Assembly (NCBI GenBank): GCA_002271215.1
Contig: CP018628.1
Coordinates: 3,038,001-3,102,000 of the forward strand
Reading direction: 5' to 3'
Length of the DNA: 64,000 bases
From: Lelliottia jeotgali
Lineage (GTDB): Bacteria > Pseudomonadota > Gammaproteobacteria > Enterobacterales > Enterobacteriaceae
Positions 16,392 through 59,677 of the stretch are shown here, in pieces. How positions within the stretch are numbered: position 1 is the stretch's first letter; the number at the start of each line of letters is the position of its first letter. Under the pieces are notes generated by a model. The model had not been told where the DNA came from, ran no database searches, and saw only the letters and a list, made by a program, of their open reading frames with translations. The translations under genes and the position numbers were made by a program.

Positions 16392-16543
16392 AGGGAACTT
16401 TTCATTAGCACGAATAGCTAAAAAATATAGCACTTTAAAGCAACAACCCATTTAATCCATGTAATACCAAAGACTTAGCGAAAGAATACATTACCGCACT
16501 GATTGTCAAAACAAAATCCATCCAAATCACTAAAATAACTCCC

Positions 16544-16637
16544 GCTATCATCATTAACTTTATTTATTACCGTCATTCAGCTTTGAATGTCTGTTTATCC
16601 CTAATTCAACCGAGTGCACTGCATTCGGTTTTTTTTT
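16544..16637 (+). ncRNA. micF: MicF antisense small RNA
   Basis: A 94-nt segment beginning GCTATCATCATTAACTTTAT and ending CATTCGGTTTTTTTTT matches E. coli MicF over nearly its full length, including the 5' region that pairs with the ompF leader and the terminator hairpin (ACCGAGTGC...GCATTCGGT plus T run). It is transcribed divergently from ompC, as in E. coli, and represses ompF translation with Hfq; it shares OmpR control with ompC. Confidence 0.95.
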
Positions 16638-34329: not shown

Positions 34330-35578
34330 TACGGTGATTATCGGCGGCGGTCTGGCCGGACTGCTGTGTGGCCTGAAACTGACGCAAAATGGTCAGCGCT
34401 GCGCCATCATCACGCGCGGTCAAAGTGCGCTGCATTTTTCCTCCGGGTCACTGGACTTACTCGGCGCAATGGCCGACGGGTCCCCCGTGCAGAATCCACT
34501 CACCGCGCTGCAAAATCCACAGGCACTGCCGCCTGAACATCCTTATCGTCGGGTGGGTATCGACAAAATTTCCCGCCTGGCACTGGAAACCGAGGCGCTG
34601 CTCGCCCATTGCGGCACGCGCTTAAAGGGTCACGCCGGGAATAATCATCAGCGCGTCACACCGCTGGGCACATTGCGCAGTGCATGGCTCAGCCCGGAAG
34701 AGGTGCCTGTCGCACCCGCGCAAACTCAGCGCGTTCGTGTGGTCGGCATCAGCGGATTTCTCGATTTTCAGGCTCACCTCGCCGCTGCTTCTCTGAGGCA
34801 TCAGGGAATCGAGGCGGACACCGTAGAAATCGAGCTGCCGGAGCTGGATGTCCTGCGCGAAAACGCCAGCGAGTTTCGCGCGGTGAATATCGCCCGCTTG
34901 CTGGATAACGACGTTCACTGGACGATGCTGTTTGATGCCTTAAAACCGCTGGCTGCGGATGTCGATGCGCTGTATCTGCCCGCCTGCTTTGGCCTGACGG
35001 ATAACCGTTTGTGGCGCTGGCTCTCCGACCGACTACCCTGCCCGCTGCATCTGTTGCCCACGCTTCCGCCGTCGGTGCCCGGAATCCGTCTGCATAATCA
35101 GCTCCAGCGCCAGTTTGTCGCGCAGGGCGGCGTGTGGATGGCAGGTGATGAAGTTAAAAAAGTGTCTCTGGAGGAGGGAAAAGCCCGCGCCGTCTGGACA
35201 CGAAATCACGACGATATTCCGCTTCGCGCACGTTTCGTGGTGCTGGCGAGCGGCAGTTTCTTCAGCAACGGTTTGCTCAGCACCCGTGATGGGATTCGTG
35301 AGGCGGTGATGGGCCTCGACGTGCGCCAGAGCGCCTCCCGCGCCGACTGGTATCAGAGTGACTTCTTCACCCCGCAGCCGTGGCAACAGTTCGGCGTGAT
35401 CACCGACGATCATTTACGCCCGCAGCTTTCCGGGGTAGCGGTAGATAATCTTTATGCCATTGGCTCAGTACTCGGCGGTTTTGATCCGATAGCCCAGGGC
35501 TGCGGCGGCGGCGTCTGCGCCATCACCGCACTGGCGGTTGCCGAACAGATTTGCCAGCGTGCGGGAGAACACCCATGA
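34319..35578 (+). CDS. glpB: Anaerobic glycerol-3-phosphate dehydrogenase subunit B
   Basis: 419 residues from ATG 34319 (GGAGCAGCACG precedes), beginning [21 protein letters not shown] with an FAD motif; same length as E. coli GlpB. It forms the soluble core with GlpA. Overlaps glpA by 11 bases and glpC by 4 (ATGA). Confidence 0.97.
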
Positions 35579-36765
35579 ACGACACCCGATTTGAAAGCTG
35601 CATTAAGTGCACCGTTTGCACCACAGTCTGCCCGGTCAGCAGCGTGAATCCTCGCTATCCTGGCCCGAAACAGGCCGGGCCAGACGGGGAGCGCCTGCGC
35701 CTGAAAGATGGCGCGCTGTACGACGAAGCGCTCAAATACTGCATCAACTGCAAGCGCTGCGAAGTTGCCTGTCCGTCTGACGTGAAAATCGGCGACATTA
35801 TTCAGCGCGCGCGGGCGCAGTACAGCACACAAAAGCCGACCCTGCGCGACGCCATTTTGAGCCACACGGATCTGATGGGCAGCGTCTCAACGCCGTTCGC
35901 TCCGCTGGTCAACGCCGCCACGGCGTTAAAACCCGTGCGCAAATTGCTCGACGTAGCGCTTAAAATTGACCATCATCGCAGCCTGCCAAAATACTCCCAC
36001 GGCACCTTCCGCCGCTGGTTTCAATCTGTCGCCGCTGAACAGGCGCAATACACCGACCAGGCCGCGTTTTTCCACGGTTGTTACGTCAACTATAACCACC
36101 CGCAGTTGGGCAAAGATCTGCTCACGGTGCTGAATGCGATGGGAACCGGCGTGCAACTTCTGAATAAAGAGAAGTGCTGCGGGGTGCCGCTGATTGCCAA
36201 CGGCTTTACCGACAAAGCACGTAAACAGGCGCAGCATAACGTGACCTCCCTACGCGAAGCGATTGTCGACAAAGGCATTCCGGTGCTCGCCACCTCATCC
36301 ACCTGCACTTTTACCCTTCGCGATGAGTATCCGCACCTGCTGGATGTCGATAACAGCGGCCTGCGCGAGCACATCGAGCTGGCAACGCGCTTTATCTGGC
36401 GCAAGCTCGATAATGGCCAGACGTTGCCGCTCAAACCCTTGCCGCTAAAAGTGGTGTATCACACGCCCTGTCATATGGAGAAAATGGGCTGGGCGATCTA
36501 TACGCTGGAGCTGCTGCGCCTCATTCCGGGGCTGGAACTTACGGTGCTGGATTCGCGCTGCTGCGGGATTGCGGGAACCTACGGCTTTAAGAGCGAAAAC
36601 TACCCGACCTCGCAGGCCATCGGCGCACCGCTGTTCCGGCAAATTGAAGAAAGCGGCGCCGACCTGGTGGTGACCGACTGCGAAACCTGTAAATGGCAGA
36701 TTGAGATGTCCACCAGCAAGCGCTGCGAACATCCGATTTCGCTGCTGGCGAAGGCATTGCGGTAG
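35575..36765 (+). CDS. glpC: Anaerobic glycerol-3-phosphate dehydrogenase subunit C
   Basis: 396 residues, as in E. coli. Two [4Fe-4S] motifs near the N-terminus ([27 protein letters not shown]) and two CCG domains ([19 protein letters not shown]). Anchors GlpAB to the membrane and passes electrons to menaquinone. Last gene of the operon; no T-tailed terminator is obvious after it. Confidence 0.98.
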
Positions 36766-36793
36766 CAATTTGTTAAACACCTGAGGTTTTCCC

Positions 36794-36840
36794 GTTCACC
36801 TTATGTTCAGCAGAACATAATCACTCTCTAACCTGTGAAC
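36794..36840 (+). repeat. Hairpin after glpC
   Basis: TTATGTTC (36801-36808) and GAACATAA (36813-36820) form an 8-bp perfect stem with loop AGCA; an outer pair GTTCAC (36794-36799) and GTGAAC (36835-36840) encloses it. There is no T tract. It abuts the palindromic element that starts with the second GTGAAC. Confidence 0.6.
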
Positions 36841-37292
36841 GTGATAAGGGGGCTGCGCGGCCCCCTTATCAATCCCCGCGCCCCTCCATGAAATCGGTGC
36901 TTCGCACTGCGCTCACCTCCCGGCCTGCTGCCTGCGGTCGGCTCGACTCGACGTCCCTGTCTCGTTTCGCCTCTGGCCGCCATCCCTGGCGTCCAGCCCT
37001 TGTCATCCGGCCTCCGGTTCGCCGATTTCTGCGGGGACCCAACACCGGTGCCACATTCAAACAGTTGTGAAGGCTGAGGGATCGTGAGTCCGGCAGAAAA
37101 TCGCCGAAGCGTTTCCGTAAGGCCGGGGCGACGCGCAGGGATGCGCGGAGAGGGTGCGACCTGCATGGATGCAGGATCGCGCCCGACCCGAAAGTCTGAA
37201 GGAATAAGCTGAGGGCACCGCGAAGCGGCGATTTTCATTGCCGGGAGCCGGGATTGTTAAGGGGGCGGCGATAGCCCCCTTAACACGTTCAC
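36835..37292. repeat. Non-coding palindromic element with terminal inverted repeats, unknown family
   Basis: The ends GTGAACGTGATAAGGGGGC (36835-36853) and the complement of GCCCCCTTAACACGTTCAC (37274-37292) differ at one base. Each end is itself a perfect 11-bp hairpin: GATAAGGGGGC/GCCCCCTTATC (36843-36870) and GTTAAGGGGGC/GCCCCCTTAAC (37256-37284). Inside are a long-range pair GAAAATCGCCG (37098-37108) with CGGCGATTTTC (37225-37235), a 6-bp stem CGCGCA-GGGA-TGCGCG (37132-37147), and a 14-bp stem of GGGTGCGA+CCTGCA with TGCAGG+TCGCGCCC (37152-37183) with one G-T pair. Short open frames inside are not credible genes. Could be a MITE-like repeat or a structured RNA. Not recognised as REP, ERIC or a known insertion sequence. 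Confidence 0.75.
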
Positions 37293-37387
37293 CGCAGAGA
37301 AACAGACAAAAAGCAGCGAACTAAGAGTGAACGGAACGATTCCACTCATTTCCCAAAGCGCATCAAACAGCACGGCCCTACATAGCT

Positions 37388-38587
37388 CTACTCAATAAAC
37401 AGAGTATCCACCACATCAATCCAGCCGTGATCGCTCGCAACATCTTTGCCATTCAACCAGCGGCGCAGCATATTCAACGCCATCATCGCGCACACTTCCT
37501 GACGCACCGGCAGACTGTAGCGCGTCGCGCTCATTTTCACCCGCAGGGCATGAGTTCCCTGCGGCGTGGCGAGGGCAAAGTTGAGATGCTCGTCTTCAAG
37601 CCCACTGACCGACAGCGCCAGCCCGGCGAAATGATTCACCCGACGATCGGCTGCCCAGTGAGCGGTTTGTGCCAACGTCTCTTCCTGCGAGGGCACCACT
37701 TCGCTCGCCAGCAGCGACGCGTTTTCTCGCGAGAGTTGCAGCGCCAGTAAACCGCCAGTGAATTGCTCGCTTAAGGTCAGGCTTAGCTGACGCTCCTGCA
37801 AATGACGGGCAATTTGCGCCGGTAATCCTTCGGTGCCTTCGAAGATCAGGTTTTCACCTGCCACGCGCTGCACTTCAGGCCATGCCGCCAGCATGGCTGC
37901 CTTTTCGCTGGCCGGGCCGGTGAGTTTTAACTCAATGATTGGCATCGAAGAGCGATAACCCATAGACACGCTTTCCGGCAGCGCAAGATGGTCGAGGCTT
38001 TGCGCCAGATCGCTTTCCGAGCGGCCAAAAGTGGTCAGACGCAGGCAGATCGGCGGCTCAGGCAGCGTGAAACGCTCGCGCAGGCGCGGCATGATTTCTT
38101 GCTCGACCATCACTTTAAATTCAGAGGGAACGCCAGGCGTGAAGAACATCAGGCAGCGGTTCAGCTTAACGGCAAACCCGCAGGCCGTGCCGACCGGGTT
38201 ATTGATAAATTCGGCGCTGGCGGGGATTTCCGCCTGTTTGCGGTTGCTGGGAGCCATCACCCGACCACGATCGTTGAAGAAACGCTCTATTTCTGCCAGC
38301 CACGGCTCATGCAGCACCAGCCCCTCACCTTTTGCCGTCGCGGCAGCCAGTGCGCTGAGATCGTCGCTGGTCGGCCCAAGCCCACCGTTGACGATCAGCA
38401 CATCCGCATGTTCGCTGCGCTCGCGCAGAACGTTAACCAGCGATTCAAGACTGTCGCCAACGGTATTGCGGCGCGTTAACGGTAATCCCTGCTCAAAGAA
38501 AAAATTGGCCAGCCAGGCCGCATTGGTATCAGTAATTTGTCCATGCAGCACTTCGTCGCCAGTGGACAACATTTCCACGCTTATCAT
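37388..38587 (-). CDS. yfaY: CinA-like protein YfaY
   Basis: 399 residues from ATG 38587, preceded by GGGAG; E. coli YfaY has 400. The N-terminal molybdopterin-binding-like (CinA/COG1058) domain has VEMLSTGDEVLHGQI and VNGGLGPTSDD. The C-terminal PncC-like domain (~250-399) retains LTLSEQFTGGLLALQLS. In related CinA proteins the two domains are ADP-ribose pyrophosphatase and NMN deamidase; the enterobacterial YfaY is reported as poor or inactive as deamidase, so its role is unclear. Confidence 0.93.
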   Translation of the reverse strand: MISVEMLSTGDEVLHGQITDTNAAWLANFFFEQGLPLTRRNTVGDSLESLVNVLRERSEHADVLIVNGGLGPTSDDLSALAAATAKGEGLVLHEPWLAEIERFFNDRGRVMAPSNRKQAEIPASAEFINNPVGTACGFAVKLNRCLMFFTPGVPSEFKVMVEQEIMPRLRERFTLPEPPICLRLTTFGRSESDLAQSLDHLALPESVSMGYRSSMPIIELKLTGPASEKAAMLAAWPEVQRVAGENLIFEGTEGLPAQIARHLQERQLSLTLSEQFTGGLLALQLSRENASLLASEVVPSQEETLAQTAHWAADRRVNHFAGLALSVSGLEDEHLNFALATPQGTHALRVKMSATRYSLPVRQEVCAMMALNMLRRWLNGKDVASDHGWIDVVDTLFIE

Positions 38588-38680
38588 CGTGTTCTCCCAC
38601 TTATTTAGTGGAAACACTATAGCGCAAACGGATGTGGGGGGAAGAGAGAAACAGGCGCAGCAGAACGCCGCGCCCTAAAA

Positions 38681-59620: not shown

Positions 59621-59677
59621 TAGCATGCTTCCAGTTGGCTCAGAATAAATCTGAGCGTTAATCAAAATTCAGTATCG

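Follow-up and report, generated by a model that had tools for sequence, protein, structure and literature searches.

The interval between glpC and yfaY of Lelliottia jeotgali carries a long palindromic, non-coding sequence, and the question is what this sequence is and how it came to lie between two convergent genes. A preliminary description of the window (the whole stretch of 64 kb that was analyzed) had regarded it as a candidate for an undescribed element and as either a MITE-like mobile repeat or a structured RNA. We assign the identity and mobility class of the element with high confidence, and it is very probably an IS4-type MITE in a decayed state, with TRIP1/TwoAYGGAY units as an inverted pair inside it. 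Each of the two alternatives holds in part: the MITE part is supported by dispersed copies, unoccupied sites, and the IS4-type ends and target duplications of relatives, and the RNA part by structured, RNA-like units with covariation. The word "undescribed" was half right, as the right half of the element is published TRIP1 and the fold resembles TwoAYGGAY. The components themselves are known; searches of the open-licence literature found no published account of their union, of the inverted pair or of the targeting of terminator apices by a TRIP1-bearing element.

NCBIfam matches confirmed both neighboring genes as previously placed (Table 1). The element is thus intergenic and 3′ of a gene, as TRIP1 repeats are. 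Its internal 136-aa ORF matched no NCBIfam family, in keeping with a MITE, which has dispersed copies and no transposase. No Rfam family reached its own cut-off in the element, and a single weak promoter-like match was found inside it, on the minus strand. Known RNAs elsewhere in the 64-kb window were MicF (16543-16636), a tRNA (1626-1699) and nuoG RNA (59628-59670).

The extent first proposed, 36835-37292, was too short and covers only the core of the repeat; the L. jeotgali genome has a second copy (G000:C1:2911752-2912325) that matched a larger span, outside which the flanks diverge. The inverted ends with one mismatch were recovered at 20 nt each. With up to one mismatch allowed and the arms confined to 600 nt, the window contained no other 20-nt inverted pair, and five shuffled windows yielded none. 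The hairpins at both ends were confirmed, and so were the CGCGCA stem with its GGGA loop and the 14-bp stem that includes one G-T pair. An 11-bp long-range pair, also proposed, was not recovered exactly; 8-bp pairs were found instead, namely AAAATCGC/GCGATTTT at 37097-37104/37228-37235 and a left-half pair at 36890-36897/37022-37029.

Table 1. Features of the glpC-yfaY interval, in window positions (R1, covariance model built from the 34 rows of alignment A1)
Feature	Position	Strand	Evidence or remark
glpC	35551..36765	+	NCBIfam TIGR03379, 746.5 bits; upstream of element, convergent
Whole recognizable element, decayed copy	36773..37346		97% match of second copy in the same genome over exactly that span
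TTAAACAC, apparently left over from an IS4-type end (inner tail)	36773..36780	+	Aligned copies of relatives; inferred
Outer inverted repeat, left, CCCGTTCAC	36791..36799	+	GTTCCGTTCAC-like motif, present beyond either end in full copies
Inner terminal inverted repeat, left	36835..36854	+	20 nt; complementarity to its right-hand counterpart 95%
End hairpin of unit B	36843..36870		Confirmed as a hairpin
Unit B, divergent TRIP1/TwoAYGGAY-type	36877..37038	-	R1 full length 1-161, 69.2 bits, E 1.6e-12
Unit B hairpin 2, GACAGGGACGTC	36950..36961	-	One of the two hairpins of unit B
Unit B hairpin 1, CGCCA-GGGA-TGGCG	36973..36996	-	One of the two hairpins of unit B
Unit A, TRIP1-type	37088..37249	+	73% to TRIP1a/TRIP1c over 182 bp; R1 188.3 bits (sequence belongs to R1 training set)
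Unit A hairpin 1, CGCGCA-GGGA-TGCGCG	37132..37147	+	Loop GGA in 34/34 rows; changes at both positions in 4/6 pairs
Unit A hairpin 2, 14 bp, loop TGGA	37152..37184	+	Loop GGA in 34/34 rows; changes at both positions in 9/14 pairs
End hairpin of unit A	37256..37284		Arms covary among copies
Inner terminal inverted repeat, right	37273..37292	+	Pairs with 36835..36854
Outer inverted repeat, right, GTGAACGGAAC	37327..37337	+	Counterpart of 36791..36799 repeat
yfaY (CinA family)	37388..38617	-	NCBIfam NF002978, 761.3 bits; convergent

The element is built from two structured units, each some 160 nt long, in divergent orientation, A on the plus and B on the minus strand, with the 5′ end of unit B facing the middle. 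This arrangement recurred among 65 loci. After 5 duplicate rows of 108 had been dropped, neighboring units no more than 700 bp apart formed 30 divergent, 4 convergent and 3 tandem pairs, and all 4 convergent pairs sat between successive divergent pairs, in two loci. One unit alone was present in 37 of the 65 loci.

Genome searches bore out the suggestion of a repeat. The L. jeotgali genome contains three copies of the whole 458 bp, with identities of 100 (the query itself), 99 and 88%, and partial ones besides. Matches were present in 24/24 same-genus genomes (its own included) and in 0/16 genomes of other families; the left half alone was found in 30 of 60 genus genomes. A scan with the unit-A pattern gave at least 120 stretches, of which 80 were used for later counts, and the matches listed came from Enterobacter, Leclercia, Lelliottia, Silvania, Kluyvera, Citrobacter, Klebsiella and Escherichia. 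In a plasmid collection, 29 of 72,556 records matched. A phage origin was rejected, with no match in phages. Part of the query matched in 5376 of 5426 E. coli genomes, at a median of 3 places, comparable to TRIP1, and no match in these 5426 genomes covered 80% of it.

TRIP1 repeats of E. coli reportedly go back to Rudd in 1999. They have been found in 6454 of 6725 E. coli genomes, and their role has been called unclear (PMC10888264). Using the MG1655 coordinates given in that paper, we found that unit A shares 133 of 182 positions (73%) with TRIP1a and with TRIP1c and 27 of 31 with the shortened TRIP1b, which identifies unit A as a TRIP1 homolog; the tie of unit B to TRIP1 runs through the R1 profile (Table 1). 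TRIP1 and the element share this homology, low copy number, intergenic positions 3′ of genes and a stable fold. The element differs in being an inverted pair: it has a divergent second unit and end hairpins of its own, and its outer parts apparently derive from IS4. Such an inverted-pair structure is not described for TRIP1 in the sections of PMC10888264 used here.

We compared the glpC-yfaY locus among relatives. The glpC probe matched in 55 of 60 genomes; 30 loci (the L. jeotgali locus and 29 relatives) were retrieved and 29 were resolved. In 27 of the 28 resolved relatives the gap was just 29-33 bp long, contained a GC-rich hairpin (identified by eye) and had no element; these are short unoccupied sites. 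The remaining relative, G074, carries a shorter insertion in the opposite orientation. Copies in G074, G071, G005 and other genomes have longer conserved ends, TAATGCYRGTCAGTTAAGC and its inverse, and lie within terminator-like hairpins.

IS4 is a textbook transposon. With a criterion of at most 3 mismatches in 18, both IS4-type ends were present at 15 of 51 distinct loci, one end at 7 and none at 29 (the three L. jeotgali copies are among the 51), compared with both ends in 0 of 2000 random stretches of the window. Target duplications of 10-13 bp, with one mismatch allowed, flanked 13 of the 15 two-ended loci. The 13 best-preserved relatives are 494-732 bp long with IS4-type terminal repeats TAATGCYRGTCAGTTAAG. 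Once joined, their flanks form hairpins, and in 13/13 cases the duplication spans the apex; A and T tracts are present in most. The ends of these relatives are equal or nearly equal to the MG1655 IS4 ends TAATGCCAGTCAGTTAAGC and TAATGCCGATCAGTTAAGG, and duplications in the IS4 subgroup are 10-13 bp (PMC2266710). The better-preserved relatives therefore have in common with IS4 the ends, the duplication length and terminator-like hairpin targets, whereas the element has no transposase gene and the window copy has lost its ends.

In a wider set, from which edge matches and some weak matches had been left out beforehand, 4 of 122 clusters among the matches listed had both ends, 5 had one and 113 had none, and IS4-type ends were found at 0 of 133 random positions. 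These counts indicate that the IS4-ended form is one class among several. Since 29/51 loci and 113/122 clusters are without such ends, most TRIP1-type units travel otherwise or have lost them. Single-unit copies at four loci (L290, L289, L287 and L298) have different outer ends, approximately GAGGGATCCCCAGTAATTTTTT on the left and TTATTTTGTGGGGATCCCTC on the right, and some seemingly lie within CCCTCTCCC...GGGAGAGGG hairpins that have repeats of roughly 12 bp or longer at either side, as judged by eye. They may constitute a second class of mobile carrier of the TRIP1-type unit.

The IS4-type transposase family PF13006 had 10 matches in 4 of 60 genus genomes. Seven of the nine genus IS4-type loci examined had two recognizable ends, at similar hairpins, and 4 of these 7 had 10-13 bp duplications. 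PF13006 had no match in the L. jeotgali genome or in G074, so a transposase able to move the element by the IS4 route was not found there. None of the three full L. jeotgali copies, that in the window included, has an IS4 end (best matches 5-8 mismatches of 18); for the window copy the best matches to the full 18-nt end have 8 (left) and 7 mismatches, which amounts to absence, and no target duplication was seen by eye at the edges of the three copies. The aligned copies of relatives read TAATGCTGGTCAG-TTAAGCATCTGAGG, or nearly so, at the leftmost feature of Table 1. The left edge of the window copy, TTAAACACCTGAGG, corresponds to TTAAGCATCTGAGG of IS4-ended copies, with TTAAG as the inner tail of the end. 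The rest of its ends is gone, and we therefore infer that the window copy once had IS4-type ends.

These results suggest the following course of events. The element would be a non-autonomous MITE with IS4-type ends, whose relatives sit in the apex of intrinsic-terminator-like hairpins. An IS4-group transposase probably moved it in trans, as the ends, the duplications and the shared target indicate. One copy would have entered the terminator-like hairpin between glpC and yfaY, and its outer ends would have been lost since. To our knowledge, the ends of ERIC/RU, REP/BIME and other enterobacterial MITEs differ from those of the element. These repeats are likewise intergenic, palindromic and non-autonomous (PMC2759123, PMC10969869), and the available sections of PMC10969869 contain no mention of IS4, TRIP1 or CsrA.

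To describe the fold, 34 rows under 95% identity were picked from 79 to form alignment A1, comprising 32 unit A and 2 unit B sequences (L131 and L077). The structure named for the window had 89.4% standard pairs, and 20 of its 40 pairs showed changes on both sides. None of 500 shuffles reached this value, and slid structures reached 10 at most, a comparison in which the tested structure is favored because it was derived from the window sequence. Covariation among the aligned copies is strong. The end hairpin, which lies outside the covariation model, covaries as well. The predicted fold of the whole element had a z-score of -9.0; in it, 90 of the 162 nt of unit A pair with unit B, so that hairpin 1 is lost and hairpin 2 stays intact.

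R1 matched 39 of 119 genomes across the family and 10 of 148 across the order, L. jeotgali included. It is not blind to unit B because its training set holds the unit B of two relatives; the unit B of the window is absent from the set. The Rfam family TwoAYGGAY (RF01731) matched 21 of 99 genomes across the order, 14 of them above the cut-off. On unit B of the window it gave 30.9 bits at model positions 47-111 (E 0.0083), below the cut-off of 43, and on unit A no match at E up to 10. The best score among the element and its relatives aligned to the full model was 41.9 bits, for unit A of the third L. jeotgali copy (L003, E 0.0028), also below the gathering cut-off of 43. TRIP1a, TRIP1c and a TRIP1d-like locus each reached some 31 bits (E 0.85-0.99), which by itself is weak. 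R1 and RF01731 coincided at G270:C7:155975-156105 (50.6 and 64.8 bits) and at L221 in G241 (56.5 and 49.7 bits), the Rfam match covering part of the model in both, and at G222:C37 (51.9 and 39.1 bits, the latter under the Rfam cut-off). Ten loci were retrieved with RF01731; R1 recovered 3 of them, one at a weak E of 0.0088.

No function is known for the RNA family TwoAYGGAY (PMC4333381; the family appears also in PMC2864571). In common with it, the units have an outer stem and, inside it, two hairpins with GGA loops; in unit A the variable loop base differs between the two hairpins, G in the first and U in the second. The units differ in that their loops are ANGGAN, not strictly AYGGAY, in scoring below the cut-off, and in forming an inverted pair inside a mobile element. 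TwoAYGGAY itself is dispersed in multiple copies through genomes of another Enterobacterales family, with 7 to 22 matches per genome, mostly above the cut-off, in G250, G267, G231 and G034.

The fold could act as DNA or as RNA, and the strongest rival to the MITE with RNA-like units is a DNA-level element, in which single-stranded or cruciform signals serve transposition or chromosome organization as in REP/BIME and the likeness to RNA is incidental. The preliminary description had read the G-T pair as a sign of selection at the RNA level, and this argument fails. In the 34 aligned copies G-U and A-C deviations were about equally frequent (28 and 26 cells). Without loop-closing A-Y pairs, a choice made after the data had been seen, the counts were 27 and 14; a model-fitted alignment gave 64 and 48, and the 79 rows with the end hairpin gave 111 and 49 cells, yet 17 and 16 pair types. 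The test thus does not discriminate in favor of an RNA strand, and this near equality, the covariation of the end hairpins and the palindromes at several scales all agree with a DNA-level role. IS4 transposases work on double-stranded ends, which argues against such a role, as do the resemblance of the unit fold to an RNA family of other Enterobacterales families and a loop GGA conserved mostly on one strand. GGA occupied both hairpin loops in 72 of 79 nonredundant units, distant ones included, and in every row of A1; the fuller A(N)GGA was present in 63 and 54 of the 79 for the two loops. By strand, 222 of 856 sense hairpin loops contained GGA, compared with 21 of 863 antisense loops. On balance we consider the DNA-level reading unlikely. 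The conserved GGA loops support an RNA role for the units of the MITE and are not proof of it.

By sequence, these are ANGGAN-type hairpin loops of the kind bound by CsrA. CsrA/RsmE targets ANGGAN loops, with the SELEX consensus RUACARGGAUGU (PMC7652899, PMC5694010), and TwoAYGGAY has already been proposed to bind CsrA (PMC4333381). The main text of PMC5694010 does not mention aqpZ. Among the matches listed from the open-licence literature, none names TRIP1 together with TwoAYGGAY or CsrA. A CsrA-decoy function of the element is plausible. The cargo is an inverted pair of structured units, each with two hairpins bearing ANGGAN-like loops. On read-through from glpC or yfaY one unit would always be sense and would offer two putative CsrA-type sites; we put this function of the cargo forward tentatively, as less likely than not. 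Bolder, and in our judgment unlikely, is a mobile CsrA sponge, in which an IS4-type MITE hits terminator apices and bears an inverted pair of putative CsrA-decoy RNAs. Targeting of the intrinsic-terminator apex would land the element where transcripts end, and the inverted pair would yield one functional unit from either strand. If so, TRIP1 and enterobacterial TwoAYGGAY may be old or rehoused cargo that titrates a global regulator from 3′ UTRs. Several points count against RNA function: the G-U and A-C counts given above, the even split of single units between sense and antisense relative to the one gene that reads into them (13 each among the matches listed), and the loss of unit A hairpin 1 to A-B pairing in the whole-element fold.

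Gene context bears on a further rival, in which the element replaces a terminator and is kept because its palindromes end transcription between convergent genes. For these counts 82 clusters in 80 named loci were used, of which 63 could be classed and 19 could not; genes were called with a crude ORF caller, and any ORF shorter than 300 aa that overlapped a unit was excluded. Among the matches listed, 29 of the 63 classed clusters lay in convergent gaps, 33 in tandem and 1 in divergent gaps, compared with 34, 111 and 72 of 217 control gaps in the same loci, and 62 of the 63 were 3′ of a gene. These positions agree with terminator targeting and also with mere tolerance. An orientation bias toward read-through was rejected, with 13 sense, 13 antisense, 22 read from both sides and 1 from neither among the matches listed.

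In favor of terminator replacement, the element stands in place of a terminator-like hairpin, and convergent gaps are enriched. Against it, hairpins with a T-run showed no excess in 36600-37500 (1 found, 1.2 expected). The split terminator arms pair across the element in 13/13 occupied sites, but the arms also paired around shuffled interiors in 48 of 60 folds at 5 sites, so the pairing is no evidence that the fold of the element keeps the terminator working. Pairing with shuffled interiors occurred in 3 of 12 folds at L129 and in 10 to 12 of 12 at the other four sites, and because it occurred at four of five sites there is no sign of design. Terminator replacement is accordingly improbable. 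A stand-alone structured RNA (sRNA or 3′ UTR element) selected at this locus and repeated only by old duplications is the least probable reading and very doubtful, since the strong covariation, the one-stranded GGA loops, the z-score of the whole-element fold and the 3′ positions of units that speak for it are set against presence at the locus in 2 of 29 resolved genomes (L. jeotgali included) with opposite orientation in the other, no G-U excess, one weak promoter-like match on the minus strand, and target duplications in the better-preserved relatives.

With the IS4-type MITE as the preferred reading, at least some TRIP1-like units would gain a mode of spread, by IS4-type ends and terminator targets, and the link of TRIP1, TwoAYGGAY and IS4 offers a biochemical role to test, with two CsrA-type loops per unit. 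The element matters because it joins things so far described separately and makes a function testable.

Several copies showed further features. An autonomous partner inside the element was considered and rejected; the longer spacings in G023 are due to a transposase inserted into copies (L015 and L036). The interrupting insertion (L015 245-1434, L036 759-1484) is presumably IS3-like, from the look of its sequence. In a long form of unit B (L015 1713-1804; L006 1417-1508), an extra hairpin block of about 80 bp replaces a short stretch and shows a likeness to Rfam AaHKsRNA22 that stays under the cut-off of that family (33.8 and 32.6 of 39.8 bits). A SymR-like sub-threshold match (45.6 of 61 bits) lies at L006 1824-1896, beside a broken unit-B copy in the L. 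jeotgali genome. In MG1655, a truncated unit-A relative is located between yegH and asmA (L041, NC_000913.3 2139485-2139759); it is not among the three TRIP1 copies given in PMC10888264. Two other E. coli strains carry a longer form of this relative at yegH-asmA, and in E. coli CFSAN061771 (L045 2301-2748) a RelE/ParE-type toxin fragment and a helix-turn-helix gene adjoin the TRIP1-like unit at yegH/asmA.
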